Of a stretch of DNA of 64,000 bases, positions 3,801 to 23,287 are shown one piece after another. Source of the stretch: Theodoxus fluviatilis (lineage: Eukaryota; Mollusca; Gastropoda; Cycloneritida; Neritidae); contig JAWQFJ010001142.1 in assembly GCA_034096865.1 (NCBI GenBank), forward strand, positions 217,481 to 281,480. Direction: 5' to 3'. Below the pieces are notes generated by a model. The model searched no databases. It was given only the letters and a program-made list of their open reading frames with translations, and was not told the DNA's origin. Each line of letters starts with the position of its first letter. Positions within the stretch are counted from its first letter, which is position 1. The position numbers and the translations under genes are program-made.

Positions 3801-6800
3801 GTGTTTGGAGTGTAGCTGAGAAAAATCTAGTCAACTATAGTGTTTGGAGTGTAGCTGAGAAAAATCTAGTCAACAGCAGTGTTTGGAGGGTTATTGAGTA
3901 AAATCTGGTGAACTGTTTCATTATGAGGGCTTTTGAGAAGGGCCTCTGAGAACTGCCTCTGAGAACTGTCTAGTCAACTGTGGTGTTTGGAGAGCTCTCA
4001 AGAATTGTCATCAACCATGGTGTTTGGAGGGCTCTTGAGAATTGTTGTCACATGTGTAGTGTAGAGCTGCCAACCATTATGCTTTTGGCATAATTAGTTA
4101 TGCCTAAGCTGCTCAAATTACGCTTTATGCTCATTTTAGAATCATTACACTAAAAATATAAAACCCAAATATGAAAAATGCATGTCGCGCACAATCTTGT
4201 GTTCACCGCGTGGAGCGAGAGAGCTAGAGAGCTTGTGAAGTGCATGACAACCTCTGATTTACAGCCAGTCGCGTTGCTTAACTTTATTTGCTGCGGTTCT
4301 ATGCTTCATTTCAAACGTTCGTCGCTTCCCTTCCCGCGCATTTCACTGTGTTCAACATTGCCACACACCTTCTATCATCATGATTAACTTGAAGTGATGC
4401 TGTCCTAGCGATGGATCAATTCCTCTGTGAAGAAGGTGAAAATTCAACTGAAGTACAAGAATGAATACACTGAAAAGCATCCCTACACCGAAAGATCGTG
4501 TCTCGGAGCGAGTCTGTCGAGATGCTAAGTGTGTGGATTGGATGTTTCCCATAGTGCACGCTGGGATGTGTGACATTGATCAACACATCAGGACAAAGAA
4601 TCACCAACGGAAAGCAAATGCAACTCGGTCAACTCCAAATATTTCAGGCTTTGTGAATGTAGAAAAGGAAGACACTGATCTTGTTATCCACAATGTTCCG
4701 CTATTGGCAGCTGATGTGGGTTCGAATTTGAGTCAGGAATAAATTTTTTTGGTCAACATTAGGTACTATGTATTAGGTTGAAAAGAGACCAGGTCTGTTC
4801 TTCAGAATCATGTTATTGTTTGTTGAACAATATTAACTCTTAAAGTCCTGTACTGCTCCAAACCACTTGTGAGTCTAAATCCTAAACTGCTTATAACAGT
4901 TTGCATTTCATGCATTGAGGTCCAAGGGAAATAACTCTGGCAAGAAGCTCTCGCATTAAAAGAAATAATTGTGCTACTCCCGCTTGGTTAGTGCGTCTTT
5001 GTGAATTTCAAAAACAGATTTTGATAAGTTTCTACTGAGTTATTTGGCTTTTTTGACTCACATGCGAAACAAAAGTGAGTCTATGTACTCAGCCGTGTCG
5101 TCCGTCCGTCCGTCCGGGCGTAAAAAACTTAAACGTTGGATTTTTCTCGGAGACTATTAAGTCTATCAACACCAAATGTGGCATGATGGTGTATGATGAC
5201 AAGGCCTCAAAAAACATACATAGTGACTTGACCTTGCTTCAAGGTCAAGGTCACAGGAGCCATAAATGTGGTCTCAAAAACAGTCATTTTTCACATTTTC
5301 CCAATTTTCTCCCACGTTATTGAGAATGGCGACCTTAGCTACAAGTGGTATATAGGTCAAAGCAAGCCCTATCTTTTGATACCAGTTTGGTTGACCTTGC
5401 TTCAAGGTCATAGTCACAGGAGCTCTTCAAAGTTGGATTGTATACCTATTTTGAAGTGACCTTGACCCTGAACTATGGAAGATAACTGTTTCAAACTTAA
5501 TAATTATGTGGGGCACATGTTATACTTTCATCATGAGACACATTTGTTCACATATCATCAAGGTCAAGGTCACTTTGACCCTTATGAAATGTGACCAAAA
5601 TGGGGTAGTGAACCACTAAAAGTGACTATATCTCATGGTAGAAAGTGCCAATAAGCACCATTGTGCTTCCTATGTCTTGAATTAACAGCTTTGTGTTGCA
5701 TGACCTTGGATGACCTTGACCTTGGGTCAAGGTGACATGTATTTTGGTAGGAAAAATGTGTAAAGCATTTCTTAGTGTATGATGTCATTGGTAAATTTAG
5801 TTGTTTGACCTTGACCTTGAAGGTCACCTGAAGGTCAAGGTCATATAAAGGTCAAGGTCAAGCATGTGAGTCGTATGGGCTTTGCCCTTCTTGTTGCTTA
5901 TTTTTTGTCTGCATTCTCCATTGCGAATATGGCGGACAGAAATGCTGACCATGGTTTGGGCAGGGATTTGTTTTTTTATCGAAATGGTTCAATCTAGAAA
6001 TGTTAGACTCAGAGACTCTGATCAGAGTGATGTAACTGTTTCTGTTGTAACTGAATTATTGGACTTCCATGAGCAAATTACTTTGACTTTGTCATCGGAT
6101 GATTATTTCAGCTTTGCTGAATGGTCAGACACTGTCAAGGAGTTTGCTAACGATCCTTTCGTAGAAGCAGTTGGTCCACGAGTACCACTTGGATTTGATG
6201 CAGAACTAGTAGCGTAGAGGAACTGTAGATGATCCATGATGAGACTGTATGCAAGGCAGAATGGCAACGGAACATTCGAATCTTCCATGGAGGAGATGAA
6301 ANNNTTGGATGCGTTGACCAAAACTGGCAGATTTCTGGCTTCTTGATGAGGCCCATGGCGATCAACACACCAATGAATCGCTTCATCTCTTCCCTGTCGG
6401 TTGGCTTCCATATCTTCAGATAGTAGAAGTTTGGAGTGAGTTGTGCAGCCTGCTCAGCATACCTGTTCGTCTCTGAGACCATCAAGTCTATCATTTGCTG
6501 ATCAACGAAAAGATCAAAATAATCCAGAGCAGTTTTCATTCTGGGCACAATCACCATCATTCCCGGATGTCCAGAAAACACAGGAATATTCAAAATCTCC
6601 CCATAATCTACTTCGATCCAGCCATCATCATCGTCCTCATCAGCTGGGAAATAGCTTCTGACACCACGCCCCCTTCTCGATCTTGTAGATGATCTCGTAC
6701 GAGGTCGGCGGCGAGCAGATCGCGATCGACGGGAAGAAGCAGTCGAAGTGCTTGGCCGAGGCTCAGTCTCAGCCTCCTCTGAGTTTTCCTCACTAGATTC

Positions 6801-9800
6801 GGCCTCAAACAGGTCAGATGAGTCGCTGTCATCATCACTGGCACTGTCCGGATCAAGTGTCAACTCTAGCAACGGTTCGTTGCTCGAACTATCGCCTCCA
6901 GAATACATATTTCACTCTAAAAATGGCACGAAAACATTTCCACCAACGTACAATCAACGTTTTGGAAAGGGAGGTAACTCTAGTTCAAATTCGGGTTTCC
7001 CAAATGAAGGAATCATTGCCAAAACGACCCTAGGGTGGCATTACGAGTATACTCGTAGTCCGGAAGTGGGAGGTAACTCTATTGTTACGAGTATACTCGT
7101 AGCCCGTCAGAAAAGGGTTAACACCAAATGTGGCATGATGGTGTATGATGACAAGACCTCAAAAAACATACACTACTTGACCTTGCTTCAAGGTCAAGGT
7201 CGCAGGGGCCATAAATGTTGTCTAAAAAACATCCATTTTTCACATTTTCCCAATTTTCTCTGAAGTTTTTGACATTGGATACCTGACCTATACAGACCTG
7301 CCAAGTGCTACGATTTAGGCGTAGCATGCTACGATTTCGACATGCTTGCTACGCTGCTACGCTTGTCCGTAAAAACTACGCTTTAAAAAAAAAATGACGT
7401 GAATTTTTTATTTTATTTTAAAAAATCAATTTATGGAAAAGCGAGCGACCCACGTGCCAGCCTCGAACTTAACTTTTGACCTTCACGTAGAATTGTATAC
7501 TGTAACCAACCAATCGCGTTGCGTTTTAACTCCCCGTGCGGAAATGCTGGAAACACCGGAAGCGCTGTTGTTTGACCGCAAAAATGGCGTCGAAGCGAAA
7601 GACGCCCGCTGTCGATCTCGCTGCTACTCCCCCAAAAAAGGCATGAAAGTCTCGACCCAGTTGTAAGCACTTTAACGCAGACTACACCAAGGAGTATCCA
7701 TGTATGGTCAGATCTGCAAATAGCTCCTCAGCCGCAAGATGCACGTACTGTCAGACCAATTTTTCGATTGCTCACGGCGGGCGGTTTGACATCGAGAAAC
7801 ATGTGCGTACTGCGACACACAAGAAGAAAGCCGCGGAAAAGCCGGGCAAACCGCTCACTGCGTATTTCAAGCCAGCGACTGCAGCAGAGGACGATCAATC
7901 AGTCATTTTAGCAGAATGTTTGTTCACATCGTTCCTATGGAACACAATGTACCCATCAGTGCAGCAGATCACGCGGGGCCACTTTTTCGGAAAATGTTTC
8001 CTGGGAACGCGATTGCACAGGAATACGGATGTGGTCGAACAAAAACCACTGCGATTGTGAAGTGCATTGCCCATTCGGCAGTGCAAACATCGGCATTTTC
8101 CTTCTTCTGCGTGTGTGCTACGCCTATTTCTTAAATACTACTCCAAAAAGCTCTGGATGCTACTCTTTGGCATGATGGTGGGTTGGCAGGTCTGCCTATA
8201 TTTGGTTATATAGGGCAAAGAAAGCTCTATCTTTTGATACCACTTTGGTTGACTTTGCTTCAAGGTCAAGGTCACAGGAGCTCTTCAAAGTTGGATTGTA
8301 TACATATTGTGAAGTGACCCTGACCCTGAACTATGAAAGATAACTGTTTCAAACTTCATTATTGTGTGGGGTACATGTCATACTTTCATCATGAGCCACA
8401 TTTGGTCACTTATCATCAAGGTCATGGTCACTTTGACCTGTATGAAATGTGACCAAATTGGCCAGTAAACAAGGCCATGTAAAGGCGCTGCAGGTGCCTG
8501 CATGGAAACAAATCCATGAAAACAAATCTAGATGGTAGTGCCGCAGGCTCCAAACTTGTAGGCTCCAAACTTGGTGATGGCAGCTGTCTGCAGAGATTCC
8601 AACTGCTTGGCATTGTGAGTTTCCACAAGTTTGCGTTTGCAGTACAGATGGAGAACTGGGCTGTGATTTTGTTCTCCACCATTCGCTGAAGCAGAGTCAG
8701 CAGTGTTGGCTGGTTGTCTGCTGATTCGTGACTTGATGACCCGCACATCCTCCTCAGTGTGGCGGCCTTCTCGCACCCTATTGAGCAACTGAGCAAACTG
8801 GCAGTCCTCTTTCTGCCGCATGATCTCTGTCAGCTCAAACATGCCCGCTCTGTCGCTGAGTTGAGTTGAGTTGAGTTGCACAACCTCTGTACATAGTTCA
8901 CAACACAACCTCTGTACATAGTTCACAACACAACCTCTGTACATAGTTCACAACACAACCTCTGTACATAGTTCACAACACAACCTCTCAGCATGTGAGT
9001 CGTGTGGGCTTTGCCCTTCTTGTGTCATTGTACCCTCAGCATTAATGCAGGGAGAAAAGGAGAAAAAAAATTGTATCATAATATTAGAAGAGGTTGTGAG
9101 CACAGGAAAAACTGTGAAGTCAGTATAAACTTGAAACAGCTGATGTCATGACAGTTCAAGTGTAAAAACTATCTTATCAGCACTGATATAAACTTTCCAG
9201 TCATAAAGGAATGAGAACAGTGGCTTGTTTTGTTAAATGATGGTCTATTTCCATAAATTTACCTGGAATTATGCTAATTGCTTACAAATTAAGCAAAGAA
9301 AAATATCAAAACACTTTGTATTTGATCTTTGTATGACCATCATTCATTTTTGACTACACACAAAAAAATTCTTATAGATCAATACAATATTGTAGAAGTA
9401 TGAATTTTTTTAACAAACTGTGTCATGGGTCATTTTCTCTGAAACCTTACAGGACTGGGGGTTGTAGCTGTAAAATCTCTTATTTTTACATGTTTCCGTG
9501 TGATCTTTTGTGTGTATGTTACGTGCATGGCAAAGTTTAGTCTCGGGCGTGGATTACTCTCAAACTTCAAGGATTACACCTAAAAGCTGAAGTTATTACA
9601 CTGGAAGCATCTGTGGGGTTGGCAGGTATGCATATGATGTTTAGAGGGCTCTCAAAAAGTGTCGTCAAATGTGGTGCTTGGAAGGCTATTGAGAATTGTC
9701 TAGTCAACTGTTGTGTTTGGAGGGCCATAGAAAATTGTTTAGTCAACTGTGGTGTTTAGAGGGCTATTGAGAATTGTTGTCAAATGTGGTCTTTGGAGGG

Positions 9801-12800
9801 CTATCGAGAATTGTCTAGTCAACTGTAGTTAAAGGGTGTTTGATTTTGTTACTTACTCTCAGCCCGTGTCCTCAGCTTCAACTTCTTTATTATGTCCATA
9901 GGGGACTGGTTGTTTTTAGAGTATTTACTTTCATTTTCTTCCTCACAGTTTAAACCCCCCCCCCCCCCCCTGGATTCGGGGTAAGAATTGACCCACAGCA
10001 TCTCCCTGTGGGATTGGTAAGAGGTAAATAACTAGGGACACTGTGACTTGCTGCTCCTAACCGTTCCTGAGGCTAAATCCTATGCCGCTTGTAACCGCGT
10101 GTGATTCATGCCAAAGAAACCAATGGAGAGGAAGCTCTCTATGATTGAAGGAAATTACTGCGCTACATCCGCTTGGTTAGTGTCTCTCAGTGAATTTTTA
10201 ACATGGATTTCAATCAATTTCTGCAGAGTTGTTTGGCTTTTTTGCTCAATTTTTGTGTGTGGTCGCTCTCCATTGCCAAGGTGGCAGACAATAATGCCAA
10301 CTATGGTTGAGGCAGTGATTAGTTTTTTCTCAAAATGGTTCAATTTAGAGTTGGCTCAGCATGATGTAAAGGTTTCAAGTGCCCACAAGTGATTTATCGG
10401 ACCTGTGGGCAAAATATTTCTACTCCTTTTATCGGACCTGTGGGCAAAATATTTCTACTCCTTTTATCGGATGTGTGGGCAAAATATTTCTACTCCTTTT
10501 ATCGGACCTGAGGGCAAAATATTTCTACTCCTTTTATCGGACCTGTGGGCTAAATATTTCCACTCAGTCATTGGATGATGTCGCTGAATAGTCAAACACT
10601 GTCATTGAAGCAGTTGTTTCAGAAATACCAATCGGACTTGATGTAGAAACAGTAGAGACTAGAGTATTTTCTGCAACTCTTTCCAGAGGAAATGTTCATC
10701 ATGATCTATATTTAGACTTTAAGCAAGGCTGAATGGCAACGGAACATTCATTAAGGACGTCAATCATTCAATGTGATGGGCCTGCGTCTCCCTATGCAAT
10801 TCATAAGAGGCGAATGACTAGGGACACCGTGACTTGATTAGCGTTTACTCCAAACTGTTCTAGTGATTTTCGTGCTTAATGGCCTTATATAGTCTACAAA
10901 GGATGATAGGCCGTAAAACACCAACCAACCAACCAAATCCCTACAGGATACGTAAGATCTTAGAATGACCAACATTCATTTCTGACTACACAAAAAAAAA
11001 TTCTTACAGATCCATACAATATTACAGAAGTAGGAATTTTTTTGACTCGCATGCGAAGCAAAAGTGAGTCTATGTACTGAGCCGTGTCGTCCGGGCGTCC
11101 GGGCGTCCGGGCGTAAAAAACTTAAACGTTGGATTTTTCTCGGAGACTATTAAGTCTATCAACACCAAATGTGGCATGATGGTGTATGATGACAAGGCCT
11201 CAAAAAACATACATAGTGACTTGACCTTGCTTCAAGGTCAAGGTCACAGGAGCCATAAATGTGGTCTCAAAAACAGGCATTTTTCACATTTTCCCAATTT
11301 TCTCCCACGTTATTAAGAATGGCGACCTTAGCTGCAAGTGGTATATAGGTCAAAGCAAGCCCTATCTTTTGATACCAGTTTGGTTGACCTTGCTTCAAGG
11401 TCAAGGTCACAGGAGCTCTTCAAAGTTGGATTGTATACATATTTTGAAGTGACCTTGACCCTGAACTATGGAAGATAACTGTTTCAAACTTAATAATTAT
11501 GTGGGGCACATGTTATACTTTCATCATGAGACACATTTGTTCACATATCATCAAGGTCAAGGTCACTTTGACCCTTATGAAATGTGACCAAAATGGGGTA
11601 GTGAACCACTAAAAGTGACTATATCTCATGGTAGAAAGTGCCAATAAGCACCATTGTGCTTCCTATGTCTTGAATTAACAGATTTGTGTTGCATGACCTT
11701 GGATGACCTTGACCTTGGGTCAAGGTCACATGTATTTTGGTAGGAAAAATGTGTAAAGCATTTCTTTGTGTATGATGTCATTGGTAGGTTTAGTTGTTTG
11801 ACCTTGACCTTGAAGGTCACCTGAAGGTCAAGGTCATGTAAAGGTCAAGGTCAAGCATGTGAGTCGTATGGGCTTTGCCCTTCTTGTTAACAAATGAACC
11901 GTGCTATGTGTCATTTTCTCTGAAACCTTACAGGACGGGGGCTTGTAGTTGTGAAATTCCTTACAGGACATTAAGAGTTAATTTGTGTTTTCTCTAAACT
12001 GTTGTGGTTTTCATGTGTATTGGCCTCAGCCTACAGAGGCTGATAGGCTGTAAAACACTATCCATCCATCCATTCTCTCAGTTAAAGAAATATATATATG
12101 TATTGCTTTGTCTTCATCATGAAGATGCAAAGAGTGAGTAGTCATTTACAAGAAATTTTATGGTGTATGATCTTGGAGGAAGGATTGAAATTGTAGTTGG
12201 GTCTAAATGATCTCTGTGCAGAGCCCCCTGATAGCTTTGTAGACTGTTTGGGGCCAGCCAGTGCTGCTGGAAAAGACTTTGAAAGCCCTGCAGCCAGGAG
12301 TCCAGCTGGTGAGGGGGAATCTGAGCTGTGCCAACCATTTGTCACACTGCTGTACATACAGTGACTGTTGTGTAGTGGGTGTCACACTGCTGTACATACA
12401 GTGACTGCTGTGTAGTGGGTGTCACACTGCTGTACATGCAGTGACTGCTGTGTAGTGGGTGTCACACTGCTGTACATGCAGTGACTGCTGTGTAGTGGGT
12501 GTCACACTGCTGTACATTCAGTGACTGCTGTGTAGTGGGTGTCACACTGCTGTACATACAGTGACTGCTGTGTAGTGGGTGTCACACTGCTGTACATACA
12601 GTGACTGTTGTGTAGTGGGTGTCACACTGCTGTACATGCAGTGACTGCTGTGTAGTGGGTGTCACACTGCTGTACATTCAGTGACTGCTGTGTAGTGGGT
12701 GTCACACTGCTGTACATACAGTGACTGCTGTGTAGTGGGTGTCACACTGCTGTACATACAGTGACTGTTGTGTAGTGGGTGTCACACTGCTGTACATACA

Positions 12801-15800
12801 GTGACTGCTGTGTAGTGGGTGTCACACTGCTGTACATTCAGTGACTGCTGTGTAGTGGGTGTCACACTGCTGTACATACAGTGACTGCTGTGTAGTGGGT
12901 GTCACACTGCTGTACATACAGTGACTGTTGTGTAGTGGGTGTCACACTGCTGTACATACAGTGACTGCTGAGTAGTGGGTGTCACACTGCTGTACATTCA
13001 GTGACTGCTGTGTAGTGGGTGTCACACTGCTGTACTTACAGTGACTGCTGTGTAGTGGGTGTCACACTGCTGTACATGCAGTGACTGCTGTGTAGTGGGT
13101 GTCACACTGCTGTACATACAGTGACTGCTGTGTAGTGGGTGTCACACTGCTGTACATGCAGTGACTGCTGTGTAGTGGGTGTCACACTGCTGTACATACA
13201 GTGACTGTTGTGTAGTGGGTGTCACACTGCTGTACATACAGTGACTGCTGTGTAGTGGGTGTCACACTGCTGTACATACAGTGACTGCTGTGTAGTGGGT
13301 GTCACACTGCTGTACATACAGTGACTGCTGTGTAGTGGGTGTCACACTGCTGTACATACAGTGACTGTTGTGTAGTGGGTGTCACACTGCTGTACATACA
13401 GTGACTGCTGTGTAGTGGGTGTCACACTGCTGTACATACAGTGACTGCTGTGTAGTGGGTGTCACACTGCTGTACATGCAGTGACTGCTGTGTAGTGGGT
13501 TGCTGTGCTTGCATTGCCTGGTGCTCTGTCTTGTAGATCGGAAGAAGCTGGGGATTGGCATGTCCCAGGAGATGAACACGCTGTTCCGGTTCTGGTCTTT
13601 CTTCTTGAGACAGCACCTTAACCGCAAGATGTACGAAGAGTTTCGCACTCTGGCGCTGGAGGATGCCAAGCATGGATACAGGTAGGCCTTTTTCTCCCCT
13701 TCTGTGACTGCGCACGCACGTACACACATACACACACATACACACACATACACACACTCAGACACACATACAGACACTCAGACACACACATATACACACT
13801 CGCGCACACACATTCACACACATACACATACATAAACACATACATACACATACATACACATACATACACAAACACGAATGCACGCGCTCACTCACACTCG
13901 CACACATATACACATACACACATATACAAACACACACACATACACACCTATACACTAACATACACATATACACACACATGTGCATGCGCGCACACGCATG
14001 CGCGCACACACATGCACACACACACATGCGGTCAGATATACACACATGCACACTCATACACACACTCATGCACACATAAACACATACATACACTAACACT
14101 CATGCACGCACACACGTGCAAACACACACATGCACACACACATACACACTCTCACACACACACACAAACCTTCCCACCCCTTCCCCCCACCCACCTGCCC
14201 CCATTCTCTGCCTGTGTGTGTGGGTGTGTGTGTGTGTGTGTGTCTGTGTGTGTGTGTGTGAGTGAGTGTGTGTGTGTGTGTGTGTATTTCTCTCTGTGTG
14301 TGTGTGTGTGTGTGTGTGTGAGTGAGTGTGTGTGTGTGTGTGTGTATTTGTGTGTGTGTGTGAGTGAGTGTGTGTGTGTGTGTGTATTTGTGTGTGTGTG
14401 TGTGCGTGTGTGTGTGAGTGCACCTGTCCCTAGTCCTTGGCATTCCATGAGTTTTCAAAAAGGCTTTTCTGCACTTCTAGCACACTCCCCCCTTTTGCCT
14501 CCATCTCATTCTACTGCTGTGCCAATGCGGTGCATTTGTTTACTTTGATGCTTGACTGGGGTGATTCTCCACAGGTATGGCGTGGAGTGCCTATTCCGCT
14601 TCTACAGTTATGGTCTGGAGAAGAAGTTCCGCATGCAGATCTTTGAAGACTTCCAGGTGGAGACTATCAGAGACTACAGGAGTGGTAAGTGCTGCAATAA
14701 CTTCTCAAAGATTCTGCCAGTGATGGCTTTGAATGATGTTGAATAAAGATATTCATTCTGTCTTTCTGATATGGTCTACATAGACTTTTGTTGACTAAGT
14801 ATTGAGGAAGTTTTGATGAGAATAAAACTAAATTGTGTATATCATAGGCTGAGAAAAGATTGGAGTAAGGACAGAGTGCTTGTGCAGACTTGTAAGAAAC
14901 ACACACATGCATGCACCCATACATGTTCATATGCACACATACTCACACACATGCACACGCCTCAAAATATGCACACATATACACATACCACACACAAACA
15001 CACACCTCTCCCATGAAATACACATGCACCAAAAAACATGCACACACCACAAAACACACACAATCAATCACACACACAATTACTCACATAAACACACACA
15101 CCACACACAAACACTACAAATCATACATGTATACACACACACACACACACATACATAAATACTCTGACACATCTCACATGAAAAACAGAAATATGCACAC
15201 CCCACATAACACACACAAGCATGCACACACAGACATGGTGCAGATCCATGGGGAGAACGAGGTGCATGCAGATTTGTAGAGGAGTCAGACGTAGCCTGCA
15301 GTGACCACAGATAGGACTCTTCTTGGCAAGCTGTGTCCACTGACCCAGTGACCACAGATAGGACTCTTCTTGGCAAGCTGTGTCCACTGACCCAGTGACC
15401 ACAGATAGGACTCTTCTTGGCAAGCTGTGTCCACTGACCGGCATATGTTGGCTGCTTGCAGGCCAGCTGTACGGACTTGAGAAGTTCTGGGCCTACCTGA
15501 AGTATTCCAATCGCAATGTCACCATTGACAAACAGCTGGAGGAGTGGCTGTCCCGCTACAAGTCTCTGGAGGACTTCCGTGTTCTGCCTTCAGTGAGTGC
15601 CTGCTTGTGTCGACTTTGGACTGACAGTGTGTTATGTAGTCAGACATGCTTTGGTGTGTAAGACTGATGGAGTGTGGGCCTGGTTGTGTCGACTTTGGAC
15701 TGACAGTGTGTTATGTAGTCAGACATGCTTTGGTGTGTAAGACTGATGGAGTGTGGGCCTGGTTGTGTTGACTTTGGACTGACAGTGTGTTATGTAGTCA

Positions 15801-18048
15801 GACATGCTTTGGTGGTGTGTAAGACTGATGGAGTGTGGGCCTGGTTGTGTTGACTTTGGACTGACAGTGTGTTATGTAGTCAGACATGCTTTGGTTGGTG
15901 TGTAAGACTGATGGAGTGTGGGCCTGGTTGTGTCGACTTTGGACTGACAGTGTGTTATGTAGTCAGACATGCTTTGGTGTGTAAGACTGATGGAGTGTGG
16001 GCCTGGTTGTGTCGACTTTGGACTGACAGTGTGTTATGTAGTCAGACATGCTTTGGGGACCTTGGTGTGTAAGACTGATGGAGTGTGGGCCTGGTTGTGT
16101 CAGACCTGTTTACTCTCCCGATTTTAGCGGGAGACTCCCGATTTCAGACCCTATTTCCCGACCTCCCGCTAGCTTCGTAAATCTCCCGATTTTTTTTTCA
16201 CCGATCTCCCGAAAATGAAAAATTTTGAAAGGTTTATTTCGTTTCCGAAGCGTTTACATGACGATCCGAACTTTCTACTACGCCACTGAAGGTCGTTCTG
16301 CCGATCTGCAGTACAATTTGTTTGATTGGTTGAGTCAGGGCCTTTGTCCAATCGAGAGCCAGTTTACAATCTGGAATAGCCGCCATTTTGCTTGACCGAT
16401 CCGAATGATGGCGTCGATTGAAAAGTCAATGAGAAAGAATCGCGGAACCGATTCTGAATCCGACAGTGAGTGTGACACAGAGGATGAGAAAAGAAAGTCC
16501 ACTGATGTCAGAAGCAGAAAGAGAGTAAAGTACAACGCAAAGTGGAAGGCTGAGTGAAAATCCGAATTCCCGGCATTTCGCCCATCGTCTAAATCGCAAT
16601 CACGCGGGTTTTGCACGTTCTGCAAAAAAGACATCAACGTGAGCCACGGAGGCAAAAATGAGAGAGAGAGAGAGAGAGAGAACTTGTGCGCGCACGAGAG
16701 AGAGAGAACTTGCGCGAGAGAGAGAGCGCGCGAGAGCGCGAAAGAAAGAGCGCGCGAGAGAAAGAGAGCGCGAGAGAAAGAGAGCGCGCGCGTGCGAGAG
16801 AGAGAGAGCGAGCAAGCGAGAGAGAGAGACAGCGCGCGCATGAGAGAGAGAGTGAGCGCCGGCGCGCGGAAGAGAGAGAATTTGACTTTTCGCCTCCCTG
16901 ATCAGAGATGGGACTTATTGGCGTTTCAGCTGATTTCTGAGTTTTTTTATTCCACTTTCAGCTGATTTGTATTCAATTGTTATGAAGTTTGTGACCTGGG
17001 ATGGTACACATATCTAAAAATAAAAATCTCCCGCTTTTTATTGAAATCTCCCGATTTTTGAGTCGCCATCTCCCTATTTTGCACAACTTAAGGTAAACAG
17101 ATCTGTTGTGTTGACTTTGGACTGACAGTGTGTTATGTAGTCAGACATGCTTTGGTGTGTAAGACTGATGGAGTGTGGGCCTGGTTGTGTTGACTTTGGA
17201 CTGACAGTGTGTTATGTAGTCAGACATGCTTTGGGAACCTTGGTGTGTAAGACTGATGGAGTGTGGGCCTGGTTGTGTTGACTTTGGACTGACAGTGTGT
17301 TATGTAGTCAGACATGCTTTGGGAACCTTGGTGTGTAAGACTGATGGAGTGTGGGCCTGGTTGTGTTGACTTTGGACTGACAGTGTGTTATGTAGTCAGA
17401 CATGCTTTGGGAACCTTGGTGTGTAAGACTGATGGAGTGTGGGCCTGGTTGTGTTGACTTTGGACTGACAGTGTGTTATGTAGTCAGACATGCTTTGGGA
17501 ACCTTGGTGTGTAAGACTGATGGAGTGAGTGGTTGTGTTGACTTTGGACTGACAGTGTGTTATGTAGTCAGACATGCTTTGGGAACCTTGGTGTGTAAGA
17601 CTGATGGAGTGTGGGCCTGGTTGATTGATTGGTTGTTGTGATTCATCATCACATAAACTTCAAGCACCAGCACTGTTCCATGTAATGTCATCAACACAGA
17701 AGCAGAAAGATCAAATGATAAATTTTCAGTGCGTAGAAAGTCTGATGAGAGCTTTCTTTGAATTTGACATTGATTCAGGAGTAATGGGCATTCAAAGTTT
17801 GAGGCTGTTGAGAAATGTGCTAGACACCAGACTATAGAGACAGCATGCACTGGAATAAGTAGGCTTTGAGTGACCCATGGTTTCTGTGCCTTCTGCAGAA
17901 GGAGGAGGATGACAAGCAGCAGGACTCGAAGGGCATGGAACCAGGAGGGGACTCAAACCCCGGACCTTCCAGCCAGGACCAGAAGGAAGTCAGTGCTGCT
18001 CAGGGAAGCAACTCTCAAGCTACGTCAGAGGCCACTGCCTCCTCCTAG
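753..18048 (+). CDS. LARP1: LARP1 (La-related protein 1), C-terminal five exons with the DM15 cap-binding region; 5' part off window
   Basis: Five exons (753-895, 13537-13681, 14575-14684, 15462-15592, 17899-18048) splice in consistent phases into a 225-residue C-terminus ending in a stop codon. Residues about 25-165 are the three helical DM15 repeats of LARP1, recognisable by [51 protein letters not shown] and [15 protein letters not shown]. In known LARP1 proteins this region binds the m7G cap and the first bases of 5'TOP mRNAs and represses ribosomal-protein mRNA translation when mTORC1 is inactive; it acts in the cytoplasm. The La module and earlier exons are expected to the left. The tail after the repeats (49 residues, acidic then Ser/Gln-rich) is not conserved. 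The introns hold nearly all the mobile elements of the left third of the window. The gene converges with the CDKL5-like gene. Family identity is very secure; exact exon edges are read by eye. Confidence 0.95.
985..3888 (+). repeat. 39-bp minisatellite, about 74 copies, in LARP1 intron
   Basis: The unit is built from GTGTTTGGAGTGTAGCTGAG followed by AAAAATCTAGTCAAC and a two-state ending, either TATA or AGCA. Copies are almost identical. Because 39 is divisible by 3 and one frame lacks stops, a 389-codon open frame appears at 950-2119; it is a by-product of the repeat, not a gene. Around 3415-3655 a run of units carries GGACTG instead of GGAGTG, a locally amplified variant. A slightly collapsed unit occurs near 2968-3015. 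The array starts about 90 bp after the LARP1 exon. Confidence 0.97.
3889..4056 (+). repeat. Degenerate left remnant of the older form of the 39-bp repeat
   Basis: Diverged units of the form GTGTTTGGAGGGCTCTTGAG with AATTGTCTAGTCAAC or AATTGTTGTCA follow the uniform array. The same diverged units resume at 9631, so the array edge was split by the 4062-9630 insertion. Confidence 0.75.
4411..4742 (+). pseudogene. hAT-like transposase N-terminus with BED-type zinc-finger remnant (family A)
   Basis: From ATG at 4411 the frame soon stops, but the next frame reads [13 protein letters not shown], and after a shift the 4461-4742 frame contains [20 protein letters not shown] followed by a SGF block. 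This is the layout of the N-terminal zinc finger of hAT-type transposases (CxxC, then HGG, D-x-x-x-H and xxxH). The first Cys pair is degenerate (CRDAKCVDW). No catalytic RNase-H-like domain follows; the ORF ends at 4742. It is related to the ORFs at 7584 and 16408. Confidence 0.6.
4860..6301 (+). repeat. Dispersed repeat B, copy 1 (interrupted by AAGGTCA element)
   Basis: The segments 4860-5054 and 5894-6301 align by eye with 10050-10775: for example CGCTTGGTTAGTG, GTTRTTTGGCTTTTTT, TCTCCATTGC and AATGGCAACGGAACATTC are shared in order. Copy 1 carries an inserted 839-bp element between its halves; copy 2 does not. The family is unidentified. It ends at a three-N gap (6302-6304), beyond which the sequence switches to piggyBac. 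Confidence 0.65.
5055..5893 (+). mobile_element. AAGGTCA-rich nonautonomous DNA element, copy 1 (complete)
   Basis: The 839-bp element has inverted ends GACTCACATGC (5055) and GCATGTGAGTC (about 5862-5872), the latter followed by a conserved tail GTATGGGCTTTGCCCTTCTTG. It has no coding capacity. The interior holds at least a dozen TCAAGGTCA or TGACCTTGA words on both strands and a short variable GTCC run. It is nearly identical to the copy at 11044. Comparison with the uninterrupted relative at about 10210-10230 shows a clean insertion after a T-tract, with TT repeated at the right edge. Confidence 0.85.
6302..6304. other. Assembly gap (three N)
   Basis: Three ambiguous bases separate repeat B from the piggyBac relic. 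The reading frame and repeat identity both change here, so true adjacency is not assured. Confidence 0.95.
6305..6908 (-). pseudogene. piggyBac-type transposase, N-terminal fragment
   Basis: The frame begins [20 protein letters not shown]. It has a long acidic and Ser-rich leader, then an Arg/Ser-rich basic stretch, then the start of the DDE_Tnp_1_7 domain: [29 protein letters not shown], and the [20 protein letters not shown] block followed by [13 protein letters not shown]. About 200 residues are present before the N gap. The catalytic Asp residues are not present, so no active enzyme is encoded here. Confidence 0.85.
6305..7117 (-). mobile_element. piggyBac-like element, 5' part only
   Basis: On the - strand the outer end reads CCCTTTTCTGACGGGC next to a TTAA at 7118-7121, the expected piggyBac terminus and target. 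Two identical 16-bp palindromes TACGAGTATACTCGTA (7042-7057 and 7086-7101) sit in the subterminal region. The transposase ORF starts at 6908 and is cut at the N gap. The element lies in a copy of the AAGGTCA element, whose body resumes immediately at the TTAA. Confidence 0.8.
7293..8194 (+). mobile_element. hAT-like element, family B, with 6-bp target duplication
   Basis: Perfect 12-bp inverted ends CAGACCTGCCAA and TTGGCAGGTCTG bound a 902-bp element. CCTATA is repeated directly outside both ends (7287-7292 and 8195-8200). Just inside the left end is a 7-bp stem, TGCTACG-ATTTAGG-CGTAGCA, and GCTACG-type words recur in the first 90 bp. It carries a decayed transposase N-terminus. Confidence 0.85.
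7584..8134 (+). pseudogene. hAT-like transposase N-terminus with BED-type finger (family B)
   Basis: ATG at 7584 opens [20 protein letters not shown] and meets a stop at 7644. The same frame then resumes with [11 protein letters not shown] and a finger: [20 protein letters not shown] followed by [10 protein letters not shown], that is CxxC with His residues spaced as in BED/TTF-type fingers. A second frame from about 7937 continues [20 protein letters not shown] and [12 protein letters not shown], the region that follows the finger in hAT transposases. One stop and one frameshift make it a pseudogene, and the catalytic domain is absent. Confidence 0.8.
8460..8985 (-). mobile_element. Helitron-type (Pif1-like helicase) fragment
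   Basis: On the - strand 8528-8944 reads [20 protein letters not shown], then [20 protein letters not shown], matching the C-terminal helicase region of Helitron or Pif1-like proteins. No Walker motifs or Rep domain are present. It replaces part of the AAGGTCA element copy 3. A cellular PIF1 pseudogene is an alternative but less likely in this transposon nest. Confidence 0.65.
8881..8984 (+). repeat. 25-bp tandem repeat, about 4 copies
   Basis: Units of CAACCTCTGTACATAGTTCA plus CAACA repeat at 25-bp spacing at the upstream edge of the helicase fragment. Confidence 0.9.
9631..9835 (+). repeat. Degenerate right remnant of the older 39-bp repeat
   Basis: Several diverged units of the form GTGTTTGGAGGGCTATTGAG plus AATTGTCTAGTCAACTGT, matching 3889-4056. 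They mark the other side of the insertion site of the large hAT-like element. Confidence 0.8.
9970..10050 (+). repeat. SINE-like repeat, partial copy
   Basis: The stretch GGGGTAAGAATTGACCCACA, then CCCTGTGGGATTGGTAAGAG and ACTAGGGACACTGTGACTTG, recurs at 10778, 34770 (reverse) and 54331 (reverse). It follows a poly-C run. No pol III boxes could be assigned with confidence. Confidence 0.5.
10051..10777 (+). repeat. Dispersed repeat B, copy 2
   Basis: Homologous in order to 4860-6301 but without the 839-bp element. It therefore serves as an empty-site comparison. It contains a private 35-bp tandem repeat at 10391-10563. Confidence 0.65.
10391..10563 (+). repeat. 35-bp tandem repeat, about 5 copies
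   Basis: Units contain TTTTATCGGACCTGTGGGC and AAAATATTTCTACTCC at exact 35-bp spacing, with a few substitutions. Confidence 0.95.
10778..10950 (+). repeat. SINE-like repeat with ACCA tail
   Basis: The head contains ACTAGGGACACCGTGACTTG. The 3' part contains CTACAAAGGATGATAGGCCG then TAAAACACC and an (ACCA)n tail. The same 3' motif occurs at 12035 and, reversed, near 54340. Confidence 0.55.
11044..11886 (+). mobile_element. AAGGTCA-rich nonautonomous DNA element, copy 2 (complete)
   Basis: 843 bp, nearly identical to copy 1, starting GACTCGCATGCGAAGC and ending GCCCTTCTTG. The flanks match the uninterrupted stretch at 9400-9470 (GAATTTTTTT then AACAAA). Seven T residues lie on the left and an extra TT follows the right end, so the insertion boundaries are clear. 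Confidence 0.88.
11995..12080 (+). repeat. SINE-like repeat 3' end with ATCC tail
   Basis: Contains CTACAGAGGCTGATAGGCTG, TAAAACACT and a short (ATCC)n tail, the same 3' end as the copies at 10778 and 54331. A short stretch at 25060-25085 also carries CTGATAGGCTGTAAAAC. Confidence 0.5.
12339..13500 (+). repeat. 40-bp minisatellite, about 29 copies, ending 36 bp before a LARP1 exon
   Basis: Units of GTCACACTGCTGTACATACA plus GTGACTGCTGTGTAGTGGGT repeat at exactly 40 bp. Variants are single substitutions (CATACA, CATGCA or CATTCA, and CTG or TTG). The array runs into the 3' splice region, so the branch point must lie in the last unit or in the 36-bp spacer. Confidence 0.97.
13537..13681 (+). 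CDS. LARP1: LARP1 exon b (DM15 repeats A/B)
   Basis: The acceptor is GCTCTGTCTTGTAG and the donor is GTAGGCC at 13682. Encodes [20 protein letters not shown], then [20 protein letters not shown] and LEDAKHGYR. Phase 1 in, phase 2 out. This is the most conserved stretch of LARP1, including aromatic and basic residues of the cap-binding surface. Confidence 0.96.
13715..14420. repeat. Facing (CA)n and (TG)n microsatellite blocks
   Basis: About 450 bp of CA/CATA-rich sequence (13715-14165) is followed after 45 bp of pyrimidine-rich spacer by about 210 bp of TG-rich sequence (14211-14420). Predicted open frames here on both strands are simple-repeat artefacts. Confidence 0.95.
14575..14684 (+). 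CDS. LARP1: LARP1 exon c (DM15 repeat B)
   Basis: The acceptor is TGATTCTCCACAG and the donor is GTAAGTG from 14685. Encodes [20 protein letters not shown] then [16 protein letters not shown]. Phase 2 in, phase 1 out. Confidence 0.96.
14898..15235 (+). repeat. CA-rich low-complexity tract
   Basis: Interspersed CACA, CATA and ACAC words without a clean unit, in the LARP1 intron. Open frames here are compositional. Confidence 0.85.
15294..15440 (+). repeat. 47-bp tandem repeat, 3 copies, just before a LARP1 exon
   Basis: Units contain GACCACAGATAGGACTCTTC, TTGGCAAGCTGTGTCCACTG and ACCCAGT. The array ends about 20 bp before the 3' splice site at 15461. Confidence 0.92.
15462..15592 (+). CDS. 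LARP1: LARP1 exon d (DM15 repeat C)
   Basis: The acceptor is GGCTGCTTGCAG and the donor is GTGAGTGCC from 15593. Encodes [20 protein letters not shown], then [20 protein letters not shown] and LPS. Phase 1 in, phase 0 out. The sequence just after the donor forms the start of the following 79-bp array. Confidence 0.95.
16408..16660 (+). pseudogene. hAT-like transposase N-terminus with BED-type finger (family C)
   Basis: ATG at 16408 opens [20 protein letters not shown]. The frame is acidic then basic and stops at 16555-16557 after KYNAKWKAE. The same frame continues [20 protein letters not shown] then [13 protein letters not shown], the first half of a BED-type finger, and then dissolves into a GA repeat. 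The distal His residues and the catalytic domain are lost. It has the same gene part and layout as 4411 and 7584. Confidence 0.75.
16654..16880 (+). repeat. (GA)n / GCGA-rich simple repeat inside family C element
   Basis: Runs of GAGAGA mixed with GCGCGCGAGA. It begins in the finger codons and accounts for the charged open frames here. Confidence 0.9.
17899..18048 (+). CDS. LARP1: LARP1 terminal coding exon
   Basis: The acceptor is GTGCCTTCTGCAG. The frame enters in phase 0 and encodes 49 residues, [20 protein letters not shown] then [10 protein letters not shown] and a Ser/Ala/Gln tail, with stop TAG at 18046-18048. The tail is acidic and low complexity; homologues vary strongly here. The stop assignment follows from the continuous frame. 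Confidence 0.85.
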   Translation, partial: KEEDDKQQDSKGMEPGGDSNPGPSSQDQKEVSAAQGSNSQATSEATASS

Positions 18049-19880
18049 TCCACCCTTCGCTGCCTCTGGAGCCCCTCCCCCCTCCCCTCCCCCCTTTTCT
18101 CCCTGAACCATTCTCTAGTTCCACTGACTGACTGACATGTTTTCCTGGACAATATTGCTCTGCGATTCAGTTGGAATTGAAAACCAGCACAGATTCACAT
18201 GACCTGGAACAAGAGCTTTGTGCCCTCTTCCCAGTGGCATTGCAAAACATCGCAGAAACTACCAGAAACCCTCTCTTCACGAATGTGTTCAGAAATGAGG
18301 CAACATGGATTTTCCCCATCTCTGTGGCTTTGGGTTGGACTATGCTGCAGACTTTCTCCCGTTTCTGCTTCCTCTCAGAAGAATTTCTTTCTCCAACCAT
18401 AGCACCTTTTTGGAAGGAAATTACAGGAAAAATTGAAATCTAAAGATTGACTGGAGTAAAGTGTTTGCATTGCTTCTACTTGAACTGTGCTGCATTGTGA
18501 ACTGAAATTCAGACGTTCAAGTCTGAATTTTTTTCTCTTTCCCCCAAGTTGCTTTTTGCTTTGTTGCTGGAGTGAAAGAGACAAAGAGCAAAAGTTGAAA
18601 ATTCTCTTCCTGGAAATTGCTACTCACCCTGGCATGGATAAACTTGCATTGGCTTAACTCTCCATCTGTGGTAGGATGGGAGGAGCAAACCCCTCATGGA
18701 TACTTTGCACATGTGGAAATGAGTATCACTAGTGCGCAGGCACTTGACAGCCAAACAGAAGCACAGAAAGACTACCTGGAAATGACAAGACTCAAGTGAG
18801 AATTAACATGTTCAACATTCTCTGGATAATCTTCCCTGATCGTGCTGGAAGCAAGCTGTGGTGATTTTCACAGGCCTTGGGTTCTCCCTCCCCGGCCTGC
18901 AAGAGAGAAACGTTTGAATGTATTCCTGCTGTGGCATGGCCATTTTGTCCCTCTTCCTTTCCATCTGTGACTCTCTCTCTCTCCCCCTTTTCTCTCTCCA
19001 TTCCCATTGTAACCCAGTGTTCTTCTCAGCCTTGATTTTTCTTTCTCTTCATTCTTGTACATCTCTTGGAGAAGGAAGAATTAGATTTTAAATTTTGCTG
19101 GAAAAGAAGGGCAGAGGCATTGTGAGTATAGTAAGCCCAAGTTGTTCATTCTTATAAGAGCAAAGCAAACATGCTGTCTTGATTTATTTCTTATCTATGG
19201 TCAAAGAAATGAAATGAAAGGTTGAATTTACCAACATGCATGTATGTAGAGAACATGGAAAAGAGTAGACTGATGTCTGGGGAATAGGTTTTTATTTCTG
19301 GAATGGTATCATGTGAGAAATTATCTGGCACTTGCAGTCCGATCACTCCATTGTCTTTGCCTCCTGCCCTTGTCTTTTCTATGCTTGTTGTTGACACGGG
19401 GAGACTTTCCCACACTTCCAACCAGGGGAGAAAAACTTTCCATGTACAATCAGTGGTACTCATGCTACAGAAGAGCTATGCATAACCTAGATGTGTGTTA
19501 TAGAACCTAGTTGACATGTTTTTCTACCCTTTCCCACAAGTTGAGCCCATTTCTTTCACCGGATAAATTCTGAAGAGGGACCGAGAACGCTGGCTGGGTT
19601 GAATGTTTTTAAGCAGTTCCATCTGTGCCGACTACTTTCAGAAAGGAAGTGTGTGTTTTTGTTTGTTTCCTCCCCATAATAATGTTTCTTGGATTTGCAT
19701 TTTATTTTTATAGGCAGTGTTGCATGTAATTTATTTACTAAATGTATATATAGTTTGGATCAAGTTTTTAGTGATTAGTACATCCTAGTGTAGTCTAGTG
19801 GCATGCAGTAATGCAAGTTGTATAATGTAGGTTCTATAATGTAGATAAGTGTTTCTTTGAGAGAGAAAAAAATAAAAAAT
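18049..19880 (+). other. LARP1: Probable LARP1 3' UTR
   Basis: No supported coding sequence and no array. A pyrimidine-rich stretch follows the stop. The first good polyadenylation word is AATAAA at 19871 in a run of A-rich sequence. Extension to a second AATAAA at 21926 is possible. Confidence 0.5.
19871..19876 (+). promoter_or_regulatory. Candidate poly(A) signal for LARP1 (proximal)
   Basis: AATAAA followed closely by AATAAAAATG. G-rich and C-rich runs follow about 40-60 bp later. Confidence 0.4.
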
Positions 19881-21925
19881 AAAAATGATCAATTACTTTT
19901 GAGTGGAAAAGTGCAGTCTGGGGGGGAAAAATTACTTCCCCCCCCCCCCTCCCCCCAATGTTGAGATTAATCAATTTGAGATGAAAAGGCATGATTAAAG
20001 TGAGTTGTACAGATTGGATTTTAATTGGAAGCATGGTGCAGAAATTACAACACAGTATAAGGAGTGGAATAGATGTGTATGAGAGGGAGAGCAAAGTGAA
20101 GGCCTTTTGGATGGCTACTGGAAACGTTGTCCTGATGTAGATGCATTTGACCCATGTACAAAGCTTCGTGAACATGACTGGCATTTCATAGTGTATATGA
20201 TGTCTGGTGGTGGTAATGTTGCAGATTACAAACCTCGTGCATGCTCGACATGCATGCGGTCTGTTATGTACTGCACTCTCCCTTTGCATGAATAATCCTT
20301 GTTTGAATACATGCTGCTTGGCATGCTCAGTAGGGAGATGCACATGTTGTGGCCGACTGACTTTTTTTCTTGTGCTTGTGGCCGTGTTAGACTTGGCAGT
20401 GGAGTCGTAGCCCTTGAGAGCAGCTTGTTGTGTTGATGTACAGAGTGACTCATTTCAGCACCTACCTACCTACTTCACCCACTGTGTTTAGTCTTGTGTT
20501 GTGCAGCCGTGTGCTGAAGGTAGTCACGAAACAGATGGAACTGCTTGCCATTCGTCCTCTGTCAGGGATGGAGTACTTAGCACAGCAATCCTCAAGTGGG
20601 GAATGGCTGTGAGTAGTTCCCATGCCTGAATCTATTATTACTCAAGTTTAGTCTTACAGAATGATGCCAGTAGGCCTTCAGGTTTACTGGTGGAGTCAGT
20701 TTATGTTTTGAGAAAGGGAGTATTGTGTTTCTTTCCCTTAGTGTGGTGCCTACCTGAACATTGTTTAACTTTTCCTTGACTTACTGCTTACTGCAACATA
20801 TGTGGCTGAAGTCTAGATAAGTTTGGGTAGTGCATATGTGGGAGTCTAGAATTTTTCTCAAGGGTAAACAAGAAAAAAGGCAAGGATTGTCATAGTTGAA
20901 CTCAATGCATTTCTACTGTTGGTGGTGGTCTGTAGTCAAGGCCAAAGACAGATTATGCAAACAATTCTCCCCTGTGTTGATGGTACCTTGGCCATACCAC
21001 AAGACTGTACATAGTGTTAATAGGATGCATTTTAGCTCCTTGTGCCTTTTCCCCATATATCTATCTATATATGTAGCAAATTACAAACCAAAAAAGAAAC
21101 AAAAAAAAGTTTGGTGAAGGGTTCTGTGTATGGTACCCTAATCCATGATTGTGTGTGCAATTTGTGTTCAAATGAAATCTTGAATGCCTTGCGGAGCGTG
21201 TATTTGGTGGATTGATTCGCTTCATTTTATCAGGATTAACATTTATGAAGGTTTTATCATGAATCATTTTAACACTGGTGAAAATTGTTGGTATGAATGC
21301 AGATAGGACAATATTTTGATGATGCATTCTTTTGCAATATTTTGTTCCAAGATGGAAATTATAATTCTGCAAATGCGATACTAATTTTGGTTTTTCCTTC
21401 ATGTGCTGCTTAGTGTAAACTTCTGCAGAAAGTTAATCGATGGCTTTGTTTACTTGCATCCTGTGTGAAAGTGAGGAAGAAGCCATTGTGATAATTGCTT
21501 GGTGTAGAGTGTACAGAAATTATATCGTGTGTGATCATCTGTCTCCAACTTTGTACCAATTAATTGCTGTGCTTCTGCCAGGGTTAATTTCTTTGATACG
21601 TGTATTTGGAATTCTGAGATTACCATGTGCGTATGATGGAGAGTTTCTGATTTATATGTTTGTGTATCGGTACATAATTCACTTCAAATTGTTCATTTCT
21701 GAGGTTTGGCTCTGATCTCTGATATATTTGCTTATGCAGCCCACTACTGTGTGTTTTACTTACTTTTTCTTTATCAAGGTTTAAGGGACAGCTTGGTGCT
21801 AGTCTTTGGCTTGTGGGAAAAGAGGAAATGAAATTCTGATCAGCAATTTGGTAAAATTTCCTATTGAGTGCATAAAAGAAAAAATGTTGTATTAATTGTT
21901 TCCATTAGTTCATTTAGTAGTATAA
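19881..21925. other. No supported gene; possible long 3' UTR of LARP1
   Basis: AT-rich unique-looking sequence with a C-run at 19937-19956. Short open frames on both strands show no recognisable domains. Confidence 0.4.
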
Positions 21926-21931
21926 AATAAA
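21926..21931 (+). promoter_or_regulatory. Candidate distal poly(A) signal for LARP1
   Basis: AATAAA within TATAAAATAAAAAAATT, followed by a GT-rich element (CAGTGTTGTTGTAG) about 20 bp on, a plausible cleavage context. Confidence 0.4.
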
Positions 21932-22054
21932 AAAATTAAACCTCCAGTGTTGTTGTAGCCATTTGTGCTGCTCTTTGCACCATGATCATCATCATTATAT
22001 AAAAATAATAACTCCACACGCTACCTCGATGGGTGGAAATTGTCAAACGCCATA

Positions 22055-22060
22055 TTTATT
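22055..22060 (-). promoter_or_regulatory. Candidate distal poly(A) signal for the CDKL5-like gene
   Basis: TTTATT on + is AATAAA on -. It would give a very long 3' UTR converging on LARP1. Another - strand AATAAA lies at 24604-24609. Which one is used cannot be told from sequence. Confidence 0.2.
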
Positions 22061-22317
22061 CAACATGGACGAAGCCATCTCCATTGGCAAGGGAGATAAC
22101 CAGTAAAATAAGGGAGGCAATTACTAGTCGACTAGGTCTCATCGGCCAAACTAGAAGCAGCTGATCAACCACCACAGCCATGGCACGAACTTATCACAGG
22201 CTGACAGCAACTTCAGGAATAATTTACAAATTATCAGAGGAAATTGACAGTCCCTTATACTGTTACTGCATATTCATGCATCAGAATTTTTTTTAAAAAA
22301 TTCATGCATCAGGTCAT

Positions 22318-22512
22318 CAGACCTGTTTACACTTCCGCAATTTGCGGAAATCTTCTGATTTTGAGTCCGAGTCTCCGCTTTTACGGCCGATCTTCCGGCC
22401 GATATTTCGCTGAAAAAATCAAAATCTTCCTCTTGAAGATCAAAACCTTCCGCATTTTTCTGGTTATTTATCAAATCTTCCTCATAAGGGTTTTTGGGGG
22501 TAAACAGGTCTG
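22318..22512 (+). mobile_element. hAT-like MITE, family D, with 6-bp target duplication
   Basis: Perfect 13-bp inverted ends CAGACCTGTTTAC and GTAAACAGGTCTG enclose only 195 bp. GGTCAT is duplicated at 22312-22317 and 22513-22518. Beside the left end is a stem TTCCGC-AATTT-GCGGAA. CTTCCG and ATCTTCC words recur through the element. No coding sequence. Confidence 0.93.
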
Positions 22513-23287
22513 GGTCATGCAAATTTATGCAACATGATCATGAGTGACTGTATTGCTTTTAACCAGGAAAAGTCAGGACAATTACTTATAAGATGGGCAT
22601 CATATACAGCTCACCAGAAACAACATTGACCCCTCATACTTCTTGAGTTGTGATTTTAGAGGATGAATGGAGTTCTATGGCCTACCAACCTTCGTTATAA
22701 TTTATTGTGATCAATGCCCTTACATAGCCAACAGAGTCAAGTAATGGAGATCATATGTGTATGTTTAAGTCTATTATAGTGTTAATTCTATTTATAGTGT
22801 TATCAATCTCATACCCCACTAGTATATTTAGACTATGTACAAAATTGTTCACATAGCACACTGTTGCAAACTTTTCACTGATAGAAGTAATATTTAACAC
22901 ACTTTGTCTCACTGGATGCAAAAAAAGATTACATGATTTCCTTGTGGAAAAGCACAGTAAACGAAATCAATATGCAACACTGCACAGGTCAGAAAACTTC
23001 AAGCATCTCATGAACTAAACTTAAAACACCATACAAAATATGGTGAACTCTTATTAGTTTCATATCACACAATTGCATCTAAGCTATTAAAGTATTTGCA
23101 AATAAATGTACAACATGCACACATGGATGAAAACACAAGCTCATCTCTTTGGATAACAAGACCAAATGCGTATTTGTTATGTCAAAAGGACATTAATAAT
23201 TTCAATAAATGTGTCATAATGAACAGAAAAGGAAAAAAATAACCTGAATTTCACAGCTAGTGACTGCAATGATAAAGCTACGACCAT

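Follow-up and report, generated by a model that had tools for sequence, protein, structure and literature searches.

A 64,000-nucleotide stretch of the genome of the snail Theodoxus fluviatilis (contig JAWQFJ010001142.1, forward strand positions 217,481 to 281,480; hereafter the window) contains four hAT transposons or their remnants, termed A to D. The left end (LE) of these elements and their relatives, that is the end upstream of the transposase, probably bears an array of phased sites for the putative N-terminal zinc finger of the element's own transposase, with the site word rewritten in concert in each family. The first two sites (bp 16, direct, and bp 28, inverted) face each other and give the palindrome that can be read as a stem-loop, while sites 3 to 7 (at approximately bp 36, 56, 64, 84 and, in some families, 107) are direct repeats, mostly at intervals of about two helical turns. 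The right end (RE) holds copies at approximately bp 31 and at two further places about 50 to 80 bp from its tip.

The elements A to D and their relatives are hAT cut-and-paste transposons. The hAT dimerisation domain (PF05699) is matched at 8e-14 in a D-family reading frame and is present in 9/9 homologues, while the DDE/RW core residues D178, D245, R335 and W336 are invariant, and E642 nearly so, among 35 relatives. The top fold matches of an AlphaFold2 model of the scallop homologue (mean predicted local distance difference test score 88.9) are Hermes, and the closest named proteins belong to marine snails and bivalves (Littorina saxatilis, 68 %; Batillaria; Nucella; Mizuhopecten). In the 965-Mb genome, CAGACCTGTTTAC has 767+778 matches as opposed to 16+9 for the reversed-pattern control, and CAGACCTGNCAA has 1067+1182 as opposed to 158+164. 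An earlier note on this DNA, made from the letters of the window, had called for a genome search for such ends with 6-bp duplications, and exact 6-bp target-site duplications were found for 33 of 45 end pairs chosen blind to duplication. A larger set of 51 pairs comprises 39 exact duplications, four with one mismatch and eight with more, a figure inflated because six E pairs in this set were selected by exact duplication (dropping them gives the 33/45). None of the 39 exact duplications extends to 7 or 8 bp. The 8-bp target-site duplication typical of hAT elements, and also of Hermes, is thus not matched by the 6 bp duplicated here; other lengths occur in hAT subgroups, and for the hAT-6 subgroup of Repbase the available part of PMC10641963 names no duplication length.

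Besides A to D, which were named from the window, the families include C2 (a variant of C), E, F and G (CAGACCTGTTTAC matches), H (L059/L072), and J (L102, L103), K (L106, L113, L114) and I (L099–L101, L104, L111), the last three found upstream of hAT reading frames that were located using the scallop homologue. The number of families is an undercount because 64 of 1,724 candidates were scored. The CAGACCTGNCAA ends yielded no new family: 15 of the 16 fetched places are B copies, including one whose left end is overrun by poly-C, and the remaining place is an unrelated repeat (L091/L092). A tandem array of 77-bp period at window positions 36,992–37,923, whose units carry CAGACCTG or CAGGCCTG, yields CAGACCTGNCAA matches other than transposon ends. 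A loose scan of 293 kb for a terminal inverted repeat (TIR) plus stem returned A, B, one extra B copy (L012) and otherwise background, with stems of at least 6 at 96 of 6,000 window positions. Family K comprises nine frames of 425 aa that score the same or almost the same, including those at C418 and C3986, the two at which left ends were read, and has possibly spread recently; family D likewise has nine frames scoring equal or nearly equal.

The palindromes of the four window elements were confirmed by direct reading at the places where the earlier note had seen them: ATTATGC-TTTTG-GCATAAT in A (4076..4094), TGCTACG-ATTTAGG-CGTAGCA in B (7306..7326), TCTCCCG-ATTTTAG-CGGGAGA in C (16114..16134) and TTCCGCA-ATT-TGCGGAA in D (22333..22349), each comprising sites 1 and 2. 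Perfect stems beginning at bp 13–19 were compared with those in 5,000 dinucleotide shuffles of the subterminal DNA. The arm length is 7 in each of the four, and a stem at that offset was matched or exceeded in 0.88 % (A), 0.26 % (B), 0.16 % (C) and 0.8 % (D) of the shuffles. The four stems exceed chance, as the note had anticipated. The palindrome occurs only at the LE, centred on bp 24 (bp 23 in F and G), and not at both ends of the element as had been supposed. Its core, defined as the five pairs between 4 and 8 bp away from the centre, was scored in 71 distinct LE copies of eight families (B 17, C/C2 14, J 2, D 10, E 12, F 12, G 2 and K 2), which were classed by left arm and loop (the two J copies, counted separately here, fell into the C/C2 class by this criterion). 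All five pairs are present in 59 copies, four in eleven and three in one, while none of the 65 RE copies exceeds 3/5 (maximum 3 among 48 classified ends; 1 or 2 among 17 B 'other' ends). Among ends outside these classes, L074/L027 show 4 and 3 of 5 and the right end of L058 shows 4/5, with no stem at L057, the left end of L058, the right end of L059, L065 and L075.

The two arms change together. Among nine families (A, B, C, D, E, F, G, J and K) 44 of the 45 core pairs are complementary, as opposed to a mean of 30.0 and a maximum of 40 in 20,000 trials of partner shuffling, and shifting one arm against the other by 1 to 3 bases leaves 8 to 15 pairs. With H, I and C2 added (12 families), 56/60 pairs are complementary (shuffle mean 34.9; maximum 46). 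The pairs differ on both sides (C:G/T:A at position 5, A:T/C:G at position 6, T:A/C:G at position 7 and three types at position 8), which are compensatory changes of the kind that the earlier note had asked to be tested against shuffled sequence. In register, the core half-sites read CTACG, TCCCG, TTCCG, ATACG and TTATG. These vary around a common core, and the stems are therefore variants of one half-site and not the unrelated sequences they had been taken for. An RNA hairpin near the element start, or a cruciform in the DNA, is decidedly unlikely as the working form of the inverted pair, whether for regulation, protection or structure recognition. Such a role would fit the perfect arms of 5 to 8 bp around a short loop in most families and their both-sided changes, but the same word also occurs without a partner at other fixed positions and in the right end, and the two half-words of family I differ (ATCCGG on the left and, on the reverse strand, ATACGG on the right in three of five copies, one mismatch apart). 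Furthermore, the core CG (TG in A) is preserved together with a mostly AT-rich flank, neither of them a demand of pairing alone, and a protein-DNA precedent exists in the available part of the Hermes report (PMC10368747). What the note had read as a family-specific recognition site thus stands as far as the word is concerned, which is most likely a site for the transposase's zinc finger, but is unsupported as a hairpin recognised by its structure.

The word recurs at LE 16, 28 (inverted; 27 in F), 36, 56, 64, 84 and often 107 in eight families. Exact copies of a family's own 5-mer lie at LE 16, 36, 56, 64, 84 and 107 in C and, with 15 for 16, in F; at 16, 37, 57, 65 and 84 in B; at 16, 36, 56 and 63 in K; at 16, 36 and 85 in D; at 16, 55 and 83 in E; at 16, 37 and 64 in A; and at 16 and 64 in J, with most gaps filled by one-mismatch copies. 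The reiteration of stem words near the ends had been noticed before; they prove to sit at fixed positions and, up to bp 130, to share a single orientation with the exception of site 2. Sites of families with different words coincide within 1 bp in 56 of 120 cases (A, C2, H and I omitted), as opposed to 10.3 for random placement (maximum 31 in 20,000 trials). Each family's own word fits its sites 3 to 7 with 27 mismatches in total, compared to a permuted mean of 68.3, and the only permutations equalling 27 are the twelve that exchange equal words (G, I and C2 were displayed but unpermuted, and H was omitted). These figures bear on the view that palindrome and array merely reflect recent common descent without constraint. 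The families are indeed homologous, with terminal 13 bp that are 62 to 100 % identical, and C and J, which share a word, group together (92/85 support). Between families, spacer identity is 33 % in register and 30 % when shifted, yet the sites keep their positions and the word stays the same within a family, and the right ends of the same elements lack the palindrome, making descent alone highly improbable.

Exact or one-mismatch copies of the word are found approximately 31, 53 and 73 bp from the right tip in B, C and E, at 31, 51 and 61 in one D copy and 31 and 51 in another, and at 31, 62 and 82 in F, while the right end of G has no word copies at corresponding distances. One copy of C (L046) and one of F (L037) carry other words at the right end than at the left, namely TCCCT for TCCCG and CTACA for CTACG, respectively, and the change is the same at all three sites; this is perhaps an end-specific word variant. 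An array upstream of the transposase frame, and denser at that end, could alternatively be a promoter element of the transposase or a binding site for a host factor, with a different factor in each family. This is unlikely given that the words also occur at similar distances at the right end in B, C, D, E and F, and that they vary around one core, as expected for one protein family; hAT transposases bind subterminal repeats in Herves (PMC3143072) and Ac (PMC3260210), as far as the available parts of these reports go. The outer end, which the earlier note held to be constant, is so only in part: its inner portion is TTTAC, CCAA or CCTA, or CAGGGCTG in family I, and the CTACG word occurs with all three of the former types. 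A further-reaching proposition is that the lineage kept a frame of up to ten putative transposase sites (left 16, 28 inverted, 36, 56, 64, 84 and partly 107; right approximately 31, 53 and 73, shifted in D and F) while the spacers were randomised, the word at all sites being exchanged jointly, in at least five ways, namely the five half-sites given above, matched by changes in the recognition helix. The chances of this being correct appear evenly balanced.

An N-terminal finger of the pattern C..C/H.....H is present in 35 of 105 homologues as well as in the elements' own families. It may be of the BED kind, judging by its position and zinc-ligand pattern, and would read the word. Immediately ahead of the first zinc His, the six residues read RFDIEK in B, SYDIEK in E, LYDCKK in G and KFDC(A/T)(H/R) in F (KLDCTR in L107), all with A at half-site position 6, and KNDISK in C, RNDCDR in D and KHDITK in J, with C at this position. 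In K, INDCKR accompanies A, while in I ANDIKR accompanies C on one half and A on the other. Of the 27 finger columns, His-5 (3.17 bits) and His-2 (3.20 bits) are the most variable across 40 fingers (35 homologues and five own families); the invariance of Gly, Asp and His in this set is uninformative because the search pattern required them. As a candidate code, an aromatic residue at His-5 goes with A at half-site position 6 in 4/4 aromatic families (B, E, F and G), and A at half-site position 3 accompanies Lys at His-1 in 4/5 Lys families, with the exception of G. Finger and word may thus change together. In Hermes, S66, N67 and R70 touch bases according to the accessible portion of PMC10368747, and by analogy may correspond to helix residues here. 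In a tree built from 20 N-terminal pieces, the only starred branches are four that join near-identical or outside rows, with C+J and H+F (88/81) just below star support.

Several observations weigh against the array of finger sites, or limit its reach. The earlier expectation that every family has a stem holds for 70 of the 71 classed LE copies, which have at least 4/5 core pairs (both G copies have 4/5), but H, a single decayed copy, has 3/5 and lacks the palindrome, and the B left end overrun by poly-C (L087) has 1/5. In family I, three of five copies have 4/5, L104 has 3/5 and L101 has 1/5. In L101 (C8301:17800–19150) a short deletion removed the right half-site; its frame scores equal to those of two other copies, and therefore the palindrome may be dispensable there, and a palindrome-less version of I may have moved. 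G and I lack the left array beyond the first sites (own-word mismatches at sites 3 to 7 of 2, 2, 4, 3, 3 and 1, 3, 2, 4, 4, respectively), which counts against a universal rule, and B, D and J lack site 7 (in A, site 6 is weak). The shuffles overstate significance because the families are related. Pfam zf-BED is unmatched in the finger of the transposase pieces searched and of 9/9 full-length homologues, and the finger lies outside the structural alignments to Hermes because these begin at residue 115 or later. The coupling of finger residues and word is suggestive; across nine families (A omitted for its decayed finger), with exceptions, it is a lead, and C and J are probably sisters sharing one word. 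Finally, the palindrome centre at bp 24 or 23 differs from that in Hermes, which would lie at approximately bp 19 (from LE11–27), and the half-sites are further apart here than in the available part of that report (PMC10368747).

The closest parallel is nevertheless the left end of Hermes, where, in the part of the report available, STR1-STR2 is a quasi-palindrome of two BED sites (PMC10368747). Common to both systems are the hAT fold, two inverted subterminal sites inside the TIR at the left end only, further inward sites, an asymmetric right end and a motif followed by AT-rich DNA, while the word here is longer and CG-cored and the array more regular. On the Hermes model, the palindrome would be occupied by a pair of fingers, each from a different protomer, which would mark the left end and load a multimeric transposase; the core domain would read the outer TIR. 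Additional fingers of the multimer would sit on the other sites, whose spacing is mostly about 20 bp, lined up on one face of the DNA, and the right end would be captured mainly through its TIR and fewer sites. The Ac/Ds elements of maize share the hAT identity and a short iterated subterminal word, the hexamer AAACGG bound by the transposase, but the accessible portion of PMC3260210 deals with one word, stresses number over fixed positions and has no series of families with replaced words. Herves of Anopheles, likewise a hAT element, has a common subterminal motif at both ends and asymmetric end binding; it is a single element, and a palindrome is unmentioned in the available part of its report (PMC3143072). 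The architecture, which the earlier note did not know to be described, thus has a known counterpart in the Hermes quasi-palindrome, but no description of conserved site coordinates with replaced words was found in a literature search judged mostly by titles and abstract openings.

In the window, the left end of A (4062..4191, + strand; TIR TAGAGCTGCCAAC) carries TTATG at LE 16, 37 and 64 and inverted at 28, and is followed by a remnant of a hAT transposase, covering its N-terminal zinc-finger part (4461..4742, +; profile match 2.8e-6; second zinc Cys lost). The right end of A was looked for and not located, and only the left end is present. This end had been given as CAGACCTG but is TAGAGCTGCC. 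A as a CAGACCTG element ending at 4797 was ruled out, as there is no duplication and CAGACCTG at 4790–4797 is part of another repeat, which, as read by eye, also flanks L114. Element B (902 bp, 7293..8194, +; ends CAGACCTGCCAA) lies between exact 6-bp copies of CCTATA (7287..7292 and 8195..8200), with further direct CTACG sites at LE 37, 57, 65 and 84 (7329..7380, +), a remnant of a hAT transposase with N-terminal zinc finger (7704..8060, +; profile match 4.6e-23) and right-end sites 31, 53 and 73 bp from the tip (8118..8164, +), the one at 73 exact and the other two with one mismatch. Element C (1005 bp, 16101..17105, +; ends CAGACCTGTTTAC / CAGATCTGTTTAC) is flanked by exact 6-bp copies of TTGTGT (16095..16100, in a minisatellite unit, and 17106..17111). 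It has further direct TCCCG sites at LE 36, 56, 64, 84 and 107 (16136..16211, +), a transposase remnant whose finger is broken by a (GA)n-rich stretch (16558..16962, +) and right-end sites 73 and 53 (exact) and 31 bp (one mismatch) from the tip (17029..17075, +). The host of this insertion is a minisatellite of approximately 80-bp units at 15,620–17,610, and neighbouring units show the empty site because C inserted into one of them. Element D is a 195-bp non-autonomous copy (22318..22512, +) between exact 6-bp copies of GGTCAT (22312..22317 and 22513..22518). Between A and B, a transposase fragment with Ns (6147–6908, - strand; PF13843 DDE_Tnp_1_7, 2e-16) is presumably of piggyBac type. Tandem repeats coding 13-residue units in one frame occur at 950–2119 and 3801–3880 of the window.

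One genome thus hosts at least nine families with five different words in much the same geometry. With several families in a single genome, and D and K each having nine frames of equal or nearly equal score, the finger code, the synaptic geometry and the escape from cross-mobilisation are therefore testable on existing sequences. The joint change of specificity in a transposase and its many end sites poses a problem, as a change in the finger should break all sites at once. If the word was indeed replaced at all sites to match changes in the recognition helix, this would represent a natural re-addressing code, stopping families that coexist in one genome from cross-mobilising each other.

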